Both the position numbers and the translations under genes were made by a program. A DNA stretch of 64,000 nt. Source: Streptomyces lydicus (GTDB lineage: Bacteria > Actinomycetota > Actinomycetes > Streptomycetales > Streptomycetaceae). Under the pieces are notes generated by a model. That model searched no databases and had not been told where the DNA came from. It worked only from the letters and a program-made list of their open reading frames with translations. Shown piece after piece: positions 44,568 through 48,685 of the stretch. Where the stretch lies: NCBI RefSeq assembly GCF_000717345.1, contig NZ_JNZA01000029.1, positions 21,926 through 85,925 of the forward strand. Direction: 5' to 3'. Positions within the stretch are counted from its first letter, which is position 1, and every line of letters starts with the position of its first letter.

Positions 44568-45236
44568 GTGAACAACGCGCAGCGAGCCCACGACGAACCC
44601 GGCCGGCCCCTGGCACGCGAGGAGGGCGGTGACCCGGCCTGCTGGCTGGACCAGGTCTGCGACGCCTGCGGACGGATCCGCGAGCGGCCCGGCAGCGAGG
44701 TCTGCGAGCACTGCGGAGCGGTGGCGGGCGAGAGCGCCCCCGCCCGCCGCCGGGACCGCGACGAGCAGGGACGGGCCCGCAACGCCCGCCCGCGCGACGG
44801 GCTCGGCCGCCCGCTGCCGTACGGCGCCCCAGGCGTCGCCCGGCAGCCCGAGGGCGTGCCCCGCACGCCCGCGGAGTCGCTGACCGAGGCGCAGCGGCTG
44901 CTCGACGCCGGGATGCCGTTCCACGCCCATGAGGTCCTGGAGGACGCCTGGAAGACGGCGCCGGAGACGGAGCGCGAGCTGTGGCGGGGACTCGCCCAGC
45001 TCGCGGTGGGCCTCACCCATGCGGCACGGGGCAATGCCGTAGGGGGAGCGACGCTGCTCGACCGGGGCGCGGTGGCCGTCGAGGCGTACGCGGACGCCGC
45101 CCCGCACGGGATCGACATCGCCGGGCTGCTGGTCTGGGCCCGGGAGCTGAGCGGCCGCCTGACCGGCCCGGAGGCCGCGGCGGCGCCCGTGGCGGCGGCG
45201 GACACCGCGCCCCGGCTCCGGACCGCCGCCGACTAG
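44568..45236 (+). CDS. DUF309 domain protein with N-terminal zinc ribbon
   Basis: The 222-residue protein starts at GTG 44568. Residues 30-50 carry 'VCDACGRIRERPGSEVCEHCGA', a CxxC...CxxC zinc-ribbon-like knuckle. Residues about 105-190 form a DUF309 domain ('EAQRLLDAGMPFHAHEVLEDAWKTAPETERELWRGLAQLAVGLTHAARGN'). No function is established for DUF309. Its TAG stop (45234-45236) lies exactly at the left junction of the IS630 element: TA belongs to the target site and G is the first base of the element. The right flank also begins with G after TA, so the uninterrupted gene had the same stop. Confidence 0.82.
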   Translation: MNNAQRAHDEPGRPLAREEGGDPACWLDQVCDACGRIRERPGSEVCEHCGAVAGESAPARRRDRDEQGRARNARPRDGLGRPLPYGAPGVARQPEGVPRTPAESLTEAQRLLDAGMPFHAHEVLEDAWKTAPETERELWRGLAQLAVGLTHAARGNAVGGATLLDRGAVAVEAYADAAPHGIDIAGLLVWARELSGRLTGPEAAAAPVAAADTAPRLRTAAD

Positions 45237-45263
45237 TGCCGCATCAGGCAACGTTCGCCCTGT
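45236..45263 (+). repeat. Left terminal inverted repeat of the IS630 element
   Basis: The first 28 bases of the element begin GTGCCGCATCAGG. They match the complement of the right end at 22 of 28 positions and include the last codons and stop of the transposase gene. Confidence 0.8.
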
Positions 45264-46383
45264 TCACGACCTCGCGGAGCCGTTCGTCGGTGGCGTGCTT
45301 GTTCCGCCAGATGATGTAGCGGCGGATCATGCTTCCCTGCTTTTTGTGGCTGGTGTGGTCGGTGCCGTCCAGGGTGAAGTAGCGCAGGGCGGTGAACTGG
45401 GCCTCGATGCGGTTCAGCCAGGAGCGGTTGGTCGGGGTATAGGCGAACTCAACGTTGTTGGCCTCGGCCCAGTCGCCGACCCGGGTGTCCTTCTTCGTGG
45501 TCAGGTGCGGGGAGAAGTTGTCGAGCACGATGGCGATGCGGGTCGTCGGCGGGTAGAGGCTGCGCAGGTAGCGGCAGAACTCCAAGAACCTCGTCCGGGT
45601 CTTCTTCGGCTTGATGTGGCCGTAGAGCTTGTCCCGGGCCAGGTCGTAGGCGGCGAACAGGTGCCGGACCCCGTGCGGGCGGGTGTAGGTCGCTCGCCTG
45701 CGGGGCCTCGGTTCCCGGTCGGGGTCCTGGTGCTTCCCTCCACGCTCGGCCCATTGCCTCCCGGGGTGGGGCTGGAGGTTGAGCGGACCGAACTCGTCCA
45801 GGCATAAGACGACTTCAGGATCACCCACCTCGGGTACGGCCTCACCGTCGGCAATCGCGTAGAGGTGCTCGACGCGGGCCTTCTTGGCTGCATAGTCCGG
45901 GTCGCGGGAGGTCTTCCAGGTCTTCACGCGTTGAAACGAGACGCACTCCTCGCGGAGCAGGACCCGAAGGCCCTCGTGGCTGATGTCGTCGACCACCCCC
46001 TCGGCGACCAGGAAGGCAGCCGGCTTGGCCAGACTCCAGGTCGAGAACGGCAGGCCGTGCTCGACCGGCCTGGACCTGGCGATTTTCTTGATCTCCCGGC
46101 GTTCCGGGAGAGTGAAGGTCTTGGGCCGGCCGCCCTTGTACTTCGGGTAGAGCGCCCCGAAGCCGTCGGCATTGATGTTGTGGAGCACGTCCCGGACCCG
46201 GTCCACGCTGGTGAACGCCACCTCGGCGATCTTCGCCACGGGCCGGCCCTGCGCGGACAACAGCACCATCTGGGCCCGCCGCCAAGTCACCACCGACCCG
46301 GTGCCTCTCCGGACGATCCGCAGCAGTCGCCGTCCCTCGTCGTCCTCGATCTCGCGAACGCGTACTCGCTCTGCCACCCGCAC
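45244..46383 (-). CDS. IS630-family transposase
   Basis: A 379-residue transposase with an N-terminal HTH region ('RRAQMVLLSAQGRPVAKIAEVAFTSVDRVRDVLHNINADG', about 36-75), the linker 'YKGGRPKTFTLPERREIKKIA', and an RNase-H-like DDE domain: Asp196 in 'LCLDEFGPL', Asp288 in 'IVLDNFSPHL' and Glu327 in 'NRIEAQF'. All three acids and the full length are present, so the enzyme could be active. Leu195-region codons include a TTA at 45807-45805, rare in Streptomyces and dependent on the BldA tRNA. GTG 46383 is the start. Confidence 0.93.
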   Translation of the reverse strand: MRVAERVRVREIEDDEGRRLLRIVRRGTGSVVTWRRAQMVLLSAQGRPVAKIAEVAFTSVDRVRDVLHNINADGFGALYPKYKGGRPKTFTLPERREIKKIARSRPVEHGLPFSTWSLAKPAAFLVAEGVVDDISHEGLRVLLREECVSFQRVKTWKTSRDPDYAAKKARVEHLYAIADGEAVPEVGDPEVVLCLDEFGPLNLQPHPGRQWAERGGKHQDPDREPRPRRRATYTRPHGVRHLFAAYDLARDKLYGHIKPKKTRTRFLEFCRYLRSLYPPTTRIAIVLDNFSPHLTTKKDTRVGDWAEANNVEFAYTPTNRSWLNRIEAQFTALRYFTLDGTDHTSHKKQGSMIRRYIIWRNKHATDERLREVVNRANVA

Positions 46384-46469
46384 AGCCTGGCAACACCATG
46401 CTGGCCGGACCAGCGCCCAGATGGCACGTCACACCACGACAGAGGCTTCCAAGTGGGGCGTTGCCCACC

Positions 46470-46500
46470 TTGACAGCATCATATTGCTTATCGATAGCAT
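46470..46500 (+). promoter_or_regulatory. Promoter and palindrome of the passenger genes
   Basis: A consensus TTGACA -35 box lies at 46470-46475. The likely -10 region is within GATAGCAT at 46493-46500. The palindrome TATCGATA (46489-46496) overlaps this -10 region and could be the operator of the XRE protein encoded downstream. The 157 bases between transposase and DUF2975 starts are clearly more AT-rich than the surrounding chromosome. Confidence 0.5.
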
Positions 46501-46540
46501 CGAATAACGATATGACGCCGCCTGAGTGGGAGGGATTCAC

Positions 46541-47155
46541 GTGCTCGACGCATCGACCTGGTGGTCGCGGGTCAACAATCATGTGCTGGAGTCGGCGCTG
46601 GGACTGGCGTTGCTGCTGGTGGGCCTGTTCAAGGTCTTACTGCCGGTCCTCGGGGTTGTCGGCCCGCTCGCGCTCGCGAGCACCACCCGCACGGTCGGCA
46701 TTGACGCCGACGTGCCCCTACCCGACACGACGGCTTCCGGGGCGGTGACACTGCGGGCGGCCGGCCGGGCCGAGCTGGTCTTCCACAGCCCGGGCTTCGG
46801 GGATCGGCTGCTGCTGATCCTGCCCGGTCTGGTCGGCGCGGTCCTGCTGCTCGTGATCTTCGATGTCCTCATCCGCCTGGCCCGCACCTTTCACGCAGGG
46901 GACTTCTTCGTCCCGAGGAACGCGCGCCGCCTGCTCGTCGTCTCCGGGCTGGTTTTCCTGATCGGCACGCTCCCCCCTGCTCTGGACGTTCTGACCACGC
47001 ATCTCCTGGTCGACGGCACGCCGGTGGGGCAGGTCGTCCACACCCCTTACTCCCTCGACATGGTGGCGGTGTTCGGGGCCTTGCTGACCGCAGCGGCGGC
47101 TGCAGCGTTCCGTCAGGGTGCGCGTCTGCGCGAGGACGTAGAGGGCTTGGTCTGA
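46541..47155 (+). CDS. DUF2975 membrane protein, passenger gene of the IS element
   Basis: The 204-residue protein has about four membrane helices ('ALGLALLLVGLFKVLLPVLGVVGPLAL', 'LLLILPGLVGAVLLLVIFDVLIRLA', 'LLVVSGLVFLIGTLPPALDVL', 'MVAVFGALLTAAAAAAF') and the DUF2975 motif 'ARTFHAGDFFVPRNARRL' before the third helix. DUF2975 proteins of unknown function are commonly paired with a small XRE regulator, as here. GTG 46541 has GGGAGGG six bases upstream. Codon 33 is TTA (46637-46639), so translation should need the BldA tRNA. The stop overlaps the next start (TGATG). Confidence 0.82.
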   Translation: MLDASTWWSRVNNHVLESALGLALLLVGLFKVLLPVLGVVGPLALASTTRTVGIDADVPLPDTTASGAVTLRAAGRAELVFHSPGFGDRLLLILPGLVGAVLLLVIFDVLIRLARTFHAGDFFVPRNARRLLVVSGLVFLIGTLPPALDVLTTHLLVDGTPVGQVVHTPYSLDMVAVFGALLTAAAAAAFRQGARLREDVEGLV

Positions 47156-47379
47156 TGCCGCCGGAGGACCCGCACGAGATCCGCTGTCACCTTGACCGGC
47201 TTCTGGCCGACCGCAGCATGACCCTGGCTGAGCTCGCCGATCGCGTCGGAGTGACGGTTGCGAACCTGTCGATCCTGAAGAACGACCGTGCCAAGGCGAT
47301 CCGCTTCAGCACTTTGAGCGCGATCTGCCGCGAGCTCCACTGCCAACCCGCAGACGTCCTCACATTCGGCACCCAGTGA
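47155..47379 (+). CDS. Small XRE family regulator (YozG-like), passenger gene
   Basis: A 74-residue protein consisting of a single Cro/C1-type HTH: 'IRCHLDRLLADRSMTLAELADRVGVTVANLSILKNDRAKAIRFSTLSAICRELHCQPADVL'. This is the YozG-type HTH usually encoded with DUF2975 proteins. The ATG shares a base with the DUF2975 stop, so the two are co-translated. The gene ends 52 bases before the right end of the element. It may autoregulate the pair through the TATCGATA palindrome. Confidence 0.87.
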   Translation: MPPEDPHEIRCHLDRLLADRSMTLAELADRVGVTVANLSILKNDRAKAIRFSTLSAICRELHCQPADVLTFGTQ

Positions 47380-47403
47380 GGACAAGCGGCGCGTCACGAA
47401 GCG

Positions 47404-47431
47404 ACAGGGCAAAGGCTCTCTGACGCGGCAC
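47404..47431 (-). repeat. Right terminal inverted repeat of the IS630 element
   Basis: Read on the minus strand this begins GTGCCGCGTCAGAGAG and ends in TTTGCCCTGT, matching the left end at 22 of 28 positions. The TA at 47432-47433 is the target duplication. Confidence 0.8.
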
Positions 47432-47442
47432 TAGGCCGCACC

Positions 47443-47510: not shown

Positions 47511-47536
47511 GGACGAGCCGGCTAGCCGGCTCGTCC
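47511..47536. terminator. 26-base perfect palindrome over the carboxypeptidase stop codon
   Basis: The 26 bases from 47511 to 47536 equal their own reverse complement. The centre CTAG contains the TAG stop of the carboxypeptidase gene (47524-47522). It probably forms part of that gene's terminator. Confidence 0.55.
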
Positions 47537-48685
47537 CCTCCCGCCGTCGTGACGGGACCGCCGCCACCGGGCGAGCAGGGCGCCCAGCGCCAGGACCGCG
47601 GCCCCGGCGCCGCCCGCCCCGAGGACGAGGGCGGGGCGGGACGGAGCACCGTCGCCGGCCTCCGGCCCGGTGGCCCGGGCGGCCACGGGGCGGGCCGGGC
47701 CGCCCAGGTAGGCGGCGCGCACGGCGTGCAGGGTGCCCACCGGCTGGCTGCTGCCGGCCGTGCCGAAGCCCCAGTCCAGCAGCGCCGCCGCCTCCTTGTA
47801 GACCGCGTTGGCCGCGTTCGACTGCGGGTTGAGGACGGTGACCAGCAGCGTACGGCCGTTCCGGCGGGCGGCCGCGATCAGCGTGTTGCCGGCCTTGGTG
47901 GTGTAGCCGTTCTTGACGCCGATGATGCCGGGGTAGCGGGCCAGCCCGTGCGAGCCCGCCAGCAGGCGGTTGGTGTTCTCGATCCGGGTGGGCCCGGCGG
48001 CGCCGGGGAACGTGGCGCGGGTGGTGCCGCAGTAGCGGGCGAACTCCTCATTGGCGAGCCCGGCCCGGGCGAACACGGTCAGGTCGTAGGCGGAGGACAC
48101 CTGGCCTGGCGCGTCATAACCGTCGGGGGACTTCACGGTGGTGTCGCGGGCGCCGAGCTTGTGGGCGGTCTGCTGCATCTCGCGGGCGGTGGCCTGCCAG
48201 CCGCCGTTCATCGCCGCCAGCACGTGCACCGCGTCGTTGCCGGAGCGAAGGAAGACCCCGCGCCAGAGGTCGGCGACGGTGTAGCGGCGGCCCTGCTGGA
48301 TGCCGACGACGCTGCTGCCGGCCCCGATGCCCGCGAGGTCCGCGGAGCTGACCTGCCGGATCGCGCCCGCCGAGAACTTCGGCAGGACGGTGACCGCGAA
48401 CAGCGTCTTGAGGGTGCTGGCCGGGGCGAGCTTGCGGTGCGGGTTCCTGGCCGCGAGCACGCTGCCGGTCTCCGCGTCGGCCACCATCCAGGACAGCGCG
48501 GAGAGCCCGCCGGGCAGCGACGGTATGCCGGGAGCTGCGACGTCCCGGGTTCCGGCGGCGGCCACGGCGGGCTGACGGGCCGTTCGCCCGTTCGCGGCGG
48601 CCGGTATGGAGGTCAGCGACACCCCCATGACGGCGATCAGGGCCGTCGCGGCCGCCTTCTTGGACACACGTGCCTGAGATGCCAT
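47522..48685 (-). CDS. D-alanyl-D-alanine carboxypeptidase (penicillin-binding protein, S11 family)
   Basis: The 387-residue protein has an N-terminal signal peptide (1-31), a serine peptidase domain with S90-T-L-K93, S148-G-N150 and K258-N-G260, and a C-terminal hydrophobic helix followed by Arg/His-rich residues (about 350-380) that anchors it in the membrane. It trims the terminal D-Ala of peptidoglycan pentapeptides outside the cell and binds beta-lactams. The third motif is KNG rather than the textbook KTG, within 'GVKNGYTTKAGNTLIA'. ATG 48685 starts the signal peptide. Confidence 0.9.
   Translation of the reverse strand: MASQARVSKKAAATALIAVMGVSLTSIPAAANGRTARQPAVAAAGTRDVAAPGIPSLPGGLSALSWMVADAETGSVLAARNPHRKLAPASTLKTLFAVTVLPKFSAGAIRQVSSADLAGIGAGSSVVGIQQGRRYTVADLWRGVFLRSGNDAVHVLAAMNGGWQATAREMQQTAHKLGARDTTVKSPDGYDAPGQVSSAYDLTVFARAGLANEEFARYCGTTRATFPGAAGPTRIENTNRLLAGSHGLARYPGIIGVKNGYTTKAGNTLIAAARRNGRTLLVTVLNPQSNAANAVYKEAAALLDWGFGTAGSSQPVGTLHAVRAAYLGGPARPVAARATGPEAGDGAPSRPALVLGAGGAGAAVLALGALLARWRRSRHDGGRGRAG

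Follow-up and report, generated by a model that had tools for sequence, protein, structure and literature searches.

An insertion sequence (IS) that lies next to ordinary genes raises the question of where the mobile DNA ends. The question is posed here by a 64,000-nucleotide (nt) stretch of Streptomyces lydicus DNA (the window), in which an IS630-family element of 2,196 bp (45236-47431) appears to enclose a transposase gene together with two genes that have no obvious part in transposition, one for a DUF2975 membrane protein and one for a small XRE regulator. The evidence favours, with a probability of roughly 0.88, the interpretation of this element as an IS630-family transporter IS, i.e. 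a single transposase plus a captured, self-regulated operon enclosed by two 28-bp ends, the operon having probably been captured via the end of a second IS.

The element, its second copy and loci without it

The left terminal inverted repeat (45236-45263, plus strand), the inner part of which codes for the C-terminus and the stop of the transposase, and the right one (47404-47431, minus strand) match at 22 of 28 positions, exactly as a preliminary description of the locus had proposed, and they are the only two matches of at least 20/28 anywhere in the window. The sequence reads TA outside each end (45234-45235, within CTAG, and 47432-47433), so that the element is framed by CTA...TAG. The transposase, which had been described as intact, is indeed an open frame of 379 amino acids (aa) on the minus strand (45244-46383); it scores 142.1 bits against the IS630 model NF033545 (cut-off 100) and 44.3 bits against DDE_3 (cut-off 28.6), and a DDE triad (LDE, DN, NRIE) is recognizable by eye.

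The existence of another copy with the same ends at a different site, which had been suggested as a check, was verified in Streptomyces netropsis CECT 3265 (L057). The cargo side including the right end has 99.4% identity over 1,026 nt, the transposase part has 98.5% over 977 nt, both ends and the TA are intact, and the flanks are unrelated to those of the window. For the genes that neighbour the element in the window, the best matches in S. netropsis, some of them perhaps paralogs, reach only 70-78% identity, and the two elements are thus far more similar to each other than the two hosts are.

The target site can also be seen without the element. On the left, the element abuts a DUF309 gene (44571-45236, plus strand) that is not cargo and whose stop codon contains the target TA; on the right, a D-Ala-D-Ala carboxypeptidase gene (dacC, 47522-48685, minus strand) lies outside it. 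A search of 392 Streptomyces genomes with the two window flanks joined together gave nine loci in other genomes (G137, G348, G064, G294, G390, G194, G191, G366 and G311); in every one of them DUF309 and dacC are convergent neighbours, and nothing between them matches the transposase, DUF2975 or XRE. The closest is G137: the two flanking proteins show about 95% identity, some 60 nt beside the junction are absent, and the CTAG target is intact, since the junction reads GACTAGGCC. Empty sites in relatives had been anticipated, and occurrence of the DUF2975/XRE pair at this locus without the transposase had been named as an observation that would speak against the element; neither gene is present in the nine colinear loci. 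Eight of the nine genomes are outside the 21 of 392 that contain a DUF2975 homolog; in G191, a truncated relic lies on a different contig. The same cargo has left relics in G258 (93% identity, with a 24/28 right end), in G191 (85%) and in G060. A tenth locus, G036 C2:1271617-1273016, has DUF309 and dacC as neighbours in a different orientation; judged from match coordinates only, the two genes are also neighbours, in a different order or orientation, at G048 C93:4357-5656. Taken together, the unit at an unrelated site in S. netropsis and the nine element-free loci give comparative support to the claim that the cargo moves together with the transposase.

The window's own genome contains two further, decayed transposase copies (G000 C15:38546-39930, L266, and C38:52417-53022, L123). 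In the former, a repeat of 24/28 with TA lies several hundred nt past the transposase-start side; this copy may therefore also have carried cargo.

Passengers in the clade and their probable mode of capture

It should be noted that the sample used to survey the clade is not random: the best 80 of 152 loci from a transposase scan of GTDB genomes were combined with 49 stretches chosen among the long matches listed for the 392-genome search, giving 130 records with the window and, after removal of 14 duplicates, 116 distinct transposase loci. Both ends, each at least 22/28 and with TA, were found in 65 of the 116, and 44 of these elements carry cargo and 21 are bare (23 and 8, respectively, at a stricter threshold of at least 26/28). 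The preliminary description had called passenger-carrying IS630 elements rare, which is wrong for this clade, where 44/65 carry extra DNA; the share may be inflated, because draft assemblies lose identical multi-copy bare elements. The bare elements span 1.22-1.26 kb. The cargo lies beside the transposase start in 31 cases, beside the stop in 11 and on both sides in two, and 60 of the 65 elements occupy a CTA...TAG target. On the transposase-start side of the 116 loci, 97 ends of at least 22/28 with TA have the expected orientation and none the wrong one; where a good near left end is missing, the left ends number 21 in the expected and one in the wrong orientation, two of the 21 being near ends.

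The cargo stretches (n = 46) comprise 323-1,681 nt, with a median of about 706, and mostly hold single genes; no gene was called in L170, and none was trusted in L060. Loose clustering of 48 stretches, including those of L125 and L126, gave 27 clusters, or about 35 after the weak links of the largest cluster had been cut. From 64 frames picked, 37 besides those of the window were scanned, and 21 had a Pfam match at E <= 0.01 (some below the cut-off) and 16 had none. The matches include GNAT, PadR, TetR, glyoxalase, HAD, hydrolase, hexapeptide, SMI1/KNR4, methyltransferase, mycothiol-S-transferase and deaminase. The transposase was matched by 134 plasmid records, none of which covers at least 80% of the whole stretch. 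A relative on a Streptomyces europaeiscabiei plasmid (L007) has a glyoxalase-superfamily gene between transposase and right end. One contig of the sample (L056) carries the title Rhodococcus sp. JCM 9791 but is listed under Gloeocapsa (Cyanobacteria), probably a labelling problem.

Cargo-bearing elements recur as units. Both ends were found, and the flanks were unrelated, in 13 of 13 shared-cargo pairs compared (63-88% identity in short gapped alignments, one flank not being comparable; a fourteenth pair is bare). L125 and L126 were counted as bare, yet have an additional, far right end; their transposases are 98% identical, and 1,734 nt are 99% identical out to this far end at different sites, so that the far end has been used despite the presence of the near one. 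L161 and L162 (G166) were considered as two independent insertions and rejected as such, since their flanks are identical; they represent a single insertion within a larger repeat and were treated as one. The IS lies there at the centre of a palindrome formed by its inverted-repeat flanks, in two identical copies of the larger repeat.

On a quick transposase tree, made without bootstrap, the cargo/bare label needs at least 12 changes, six of them forced by well-supported branches. None of 500 shuffles was as low (mean 17.9), and thus the state is partly inherited, the label being more clustered than chance. The hexapeptide cargo is 95% identical between L066 and L138, the transposases of which are 87% identical and belong to different branches. 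The histories of cargo and transposase can differ, and the pattern as a whole is consistent with capture or loss on repeated occasions, together with inheritance and some swapping of modules.

The 22-nt end pattern was found in 60 of 121 genomes, and its reversed control in none. Transposase-less repeat pairs were absent among the transposase loci and appeared only in the genome-wide repeat search. L254 (503-1126, 624 bp, with a 154-aa frame) and L255 (503-1033, 531 bp) have the same ends and no transposase match. L256 (503-1495, 993 bp) carries a hydrolase gene as in L042 and L166 (77% DNA identity) and a relic of only 17 aa of the transposase C-terminus (E = 0.001, a weak match), and L257 (503-1596) retains 50 aa of this C-terminus and lacks the TA on one side; both look like deletion products, judging from these remnants. 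According to coordinates, G046 harbours nine complete miniature elements of 163 bp with these ends, and the fetched stretches of the two copies that were read (L258, L259) contain no transposase match. A mobile insertion cassette is defined by the absence of a transposase, a definition that covers L254 and L255, nearly covers L256 and does not cover the window element.

How the cargo was caught may be read from the right side of the window element. The first 59 nt past the transposase start (46384-46442) represent a bare-IS right end, with 78% identity to a bare relative, and break off 4 nt into the repeat; the outer 45 nt (47387-47431, minus strand), including the 28-nt repeat, are right-end sequence again (82%). 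In bare relatives, the element ends 69-84 nt upstream of the transposase start. Copies ending near 46400-46470 had been named as evidence against an element that includes the cargo; taken literally, such copies do exist, but the inner end of the window element is a relic without the repeat, and the S. netropsis copy used the outer end. Inner right-end pieces are also kept in L159, L147, L138, L066, L127, L043 and L050. The outer end, repeat included, is left-type in L147 (65 nt), L126 (62 nt) and L125 (49 nt) and right-type in L161 (49 nt), and L055 has an inverted left end of 127 nt just inside its outer repeat.

On this evidence, the host operon would have had a second, related IS end on its far side, and after this far end had come into use, the inner end would have been lost together with the remainder of the second copy. 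The transposase would cut at the outer 28-bp repeats and paste the whole 2.2 kb into CTAG. The layout of L074, in which a decayed repeat (23/28, without TA) lies at 324 nt, the outer repeat lies at 1,286 nt, and a copy of the first cargo's start precedes the outer repeat, suggests stepwise growth. Apparent two-step growth is seen in both L070 and L074, as a small cargo, a decayed middle repeat (in L074), a second cargo and an outer repeat.

The cargo operon

The two cargo genes form an operon, in agreement with the preliminary description: the frames of the DUF2975 protein (46541-47155, plus strand, 204 aa, four predicted transmembrane segments) and of the XRE regulator (47155-47379, plus strand, 74 aa) overlap as TGATG (47153-47157), the start of the second being embedded in the stop of the first. 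The preferred start of the DUF2975 gene is a GTG at 46541, which follows a GGGAGG-type ribosome site identified by eye. The DUF2975 label comes from homologs, several of which carry PF11188 at 48-70% identity; the window protein itself scores 24.9 bits, under the gathering cut-off of 27. The HTH_26 match of the regulator is strong (73.6 bits, cut-off 22). DUF2975 homologs (E <= 1e-6) in the 392 Streptomyces genomes are confined to 21, the window's own included, and in 20 of the 21 an XRE match adjoins. Homologous pairs without these ends are present in fetched stretches of other Streptomyces. C-terminal parts of DUF2975 also occur within longer proteins or open frames of 273, 301 and 358 aa (P0005, P0017; G258), perhaps fusions made by truncated copies.

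A 35-bp palindrome, CATATCGnTTATCGATAgTATCGATAAnCGATATG, precedes all 17 homologous operons in which the start is kept (the window, 46480-46514, plus strand, and L231-L242, L244-L246 and L249, across Streptomyces), with matches of 24-35 of 35 positions, compared with at most 21 in shuffles. The motif was derived from these same sequences, and therefore self-complementarity, which holds for 11-17 of 17 pairs across the operons, is the better evidence for a palindrome. The window copy matches the family motif at 30/35 positions and is self-complementary at 12/17. The remaining four operons (L230, L243, L247 and L248) have neither a DUF2975 start nor the palindrome. As to a promoter of its own, which had also been claimed for the cargo, a strict sigma-70 scan found no site for the operon, but TTGACA followed by the palindrome recurs before homologous operons (10 of 17, by eye), the putative -35 of the window lying at 46470-46475 (plus strand).

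In the structure model of the DUF2975 protein (mean pLDDT 78), four long helices are accompanied by a loop rich in strands. Comparison with the sequences of solved structures returned nothing useful for DUF2975 and weak regulator matches for XRE, and among the open-access literature matches listed only two papers mention DUF2975. A defence system was considered and rejected, PADLOC giving no match for DUF2975 and only a weak, generic one for XRE. The operon is probably a self-controlled unit, in which XRE would bind the palindrome near the promoter; the four-helix protein at the membrane might conceivably act as a sensor or a tether that releases XRE. The palindrome offers a first handle on this uncharacterised pair.

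Alternative explanations and known systems

Several observations count against a transporter IS with an operon captured via a second IS end. About 197 nt around the transposase start are absent from the S. netropsis copy, which may therefore be dead, and a crude count found open transposases in 17/31 elements with right cargo and 5/11 with left cargo versus 18/21 bare and 2/2 both-sided ones. When 48 outer ends were put through a 30-nt subterminal test, only seven reached p <= 0.01, and most match little beyond the 28-nt repeat; the window's outer end is borderline (0.01), the identical end of L057 gives 0.03, and L114 is left-type by this test and right-type by comparison of end relics. Since most outer ends match bare relatives so little past the repeat, a second IS copy is evident for a minority only. 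Lastly, the fold search with DUF2975 yielded no match at E <= 0.001 and nothing informative; four-helix membrane proteins such as claudins in its top rows have E values of about 1 or worse.

A first alternative, a bare IS630 copy beside unrelated host genes with a right repeat that arose by chance or belongs to another element, would account for the place at which bare relatives end and for the decayed right end at the corresponding place in the window, but it can hardly be upheld, as it is contradicted by the recurrence of the same cargo with both ends elsewhere in S. netropsis and is opposed by the orientation counts (97 to 0) and by the lack of transposase and cargo in 9/9 colinear loci. 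Chance as the source of the right repeat is ruled out by these counts and by the uniqueness of the two repeats in the window. Capture by means of a cassette or miniature element bounded by repeats, which would already have lain on the far side of the genes and supplied the outer end in place of a second complete IS copy, is rather unlikely. In its favour are the existing cassettes that lack the transposase or nearly so (L254-L257), the miniature elements of G046 and the many outer ends that share little but the repeat with bare relatives. However, the outer match exceeds the repeat in the window, L161, L125/L126 and L147 (45-65 nt with the repeat), L055 keeps 127 nt of a left end, the remnants in L256 (17 aa, weak) and L257 (50 aa) resemble deletion products, and a second copy later shrunk to the bare repeat would look identical.

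It is unlikely that the element is a fossil that moved formerly and now spreads only inside larger transferred DNA. The broken frames of many cargo copies and the decay of both other transposase copies in its own genome would be expected of a fossil, whereas the open transposase, the intact ends and both intact TAs of the window element, and the 99.4% identity of the cargo side at an unrelated site, would not. That the DUF2975/XRE pair is a competition, immunity or toxin-antitoxin-like module giving the element a survival advantage is quite improbable: the operon is small, has moved horizontally, encodes a membrane protein and has a putative operator, as such a module might, but PADLOC provides no support, homologous pairs also occur without these ends, and the other passengers of the clade are varied.

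A broader proposal is made tentatively, with the odds somewhat against it: the IS630 clade might be a gene-cassette capture system of Streptomyces and relatives, in which any host gene caught between two 28-bp ends would become a mobile cassette, with stepwise addition and exchange of modules between lineages. If true, single genes equipped with their own promoters would have a route between species, a concrete and testable one for ordinary genes of Streptomyces, without plasmids or integrons. For annotation, genes beside an "IS630 family transposase" in Streptomyces may lie within the element.

Among the open-access literature matches listed, none concerned passenger-carrying IS630 elements in Streptomyces, and none an IS630 clade in which most both-ended copies carry captured genes with readable capture steps; the accessible portions of PMC7371123 and PMC11092175 do not describe the former. 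The window element resembles a composite transposon in that host genes are bounded by two IS-derived ends, and it differs in having one IS and one transposase, the second copy being at most an end relic (the 45-nt outer end). Tenzen and Ohtsubo reportedly described a preference of IS630 for CTAG. Its DDE transposase, inverted repeats, TA duplication and CTAG target place the window element with IS630/Tc1-mariner elements, for which the part of PMC2170065 consulted describes a DDE transposase, TA duplication and, for ISY100, cut-and-paste by the transposase alone; that text portrays the family as single transposase genes, whereas cargo is present here too. IS231 belongs to a different family, IS4, and differs from the present clade, which has TA/CTAG targets and in which bare forms are fewer, in our sample, than those that combine a transposase with cargo. 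The modular make-up of IS231-MIC231 of Bacillus cereus, an IS with movable, transposase-less gene cassettes, is outlined in the available part of PMC3913671. Transporter IS, mobile insertion cassette and miniature inverted-repeat transposable element are established terms (excerpts of PMC3129680, PMC9330008 and PMC3913671), the first (tIS) denoting an IS whose ends enclose passenger genes unrelated to transposition (PMC3129680, PMC9330008, same excerpts). On comparative evidence, the window element corresponds to it, with DUF2975 and XRE inside the ends and moved with the transposase as a unit, and differs in its IS630 clade, in which cargo lies on either or both sides, the cargos are many and some copies retain relic or intermediate ends. 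As a class, transporter ISs are already known.

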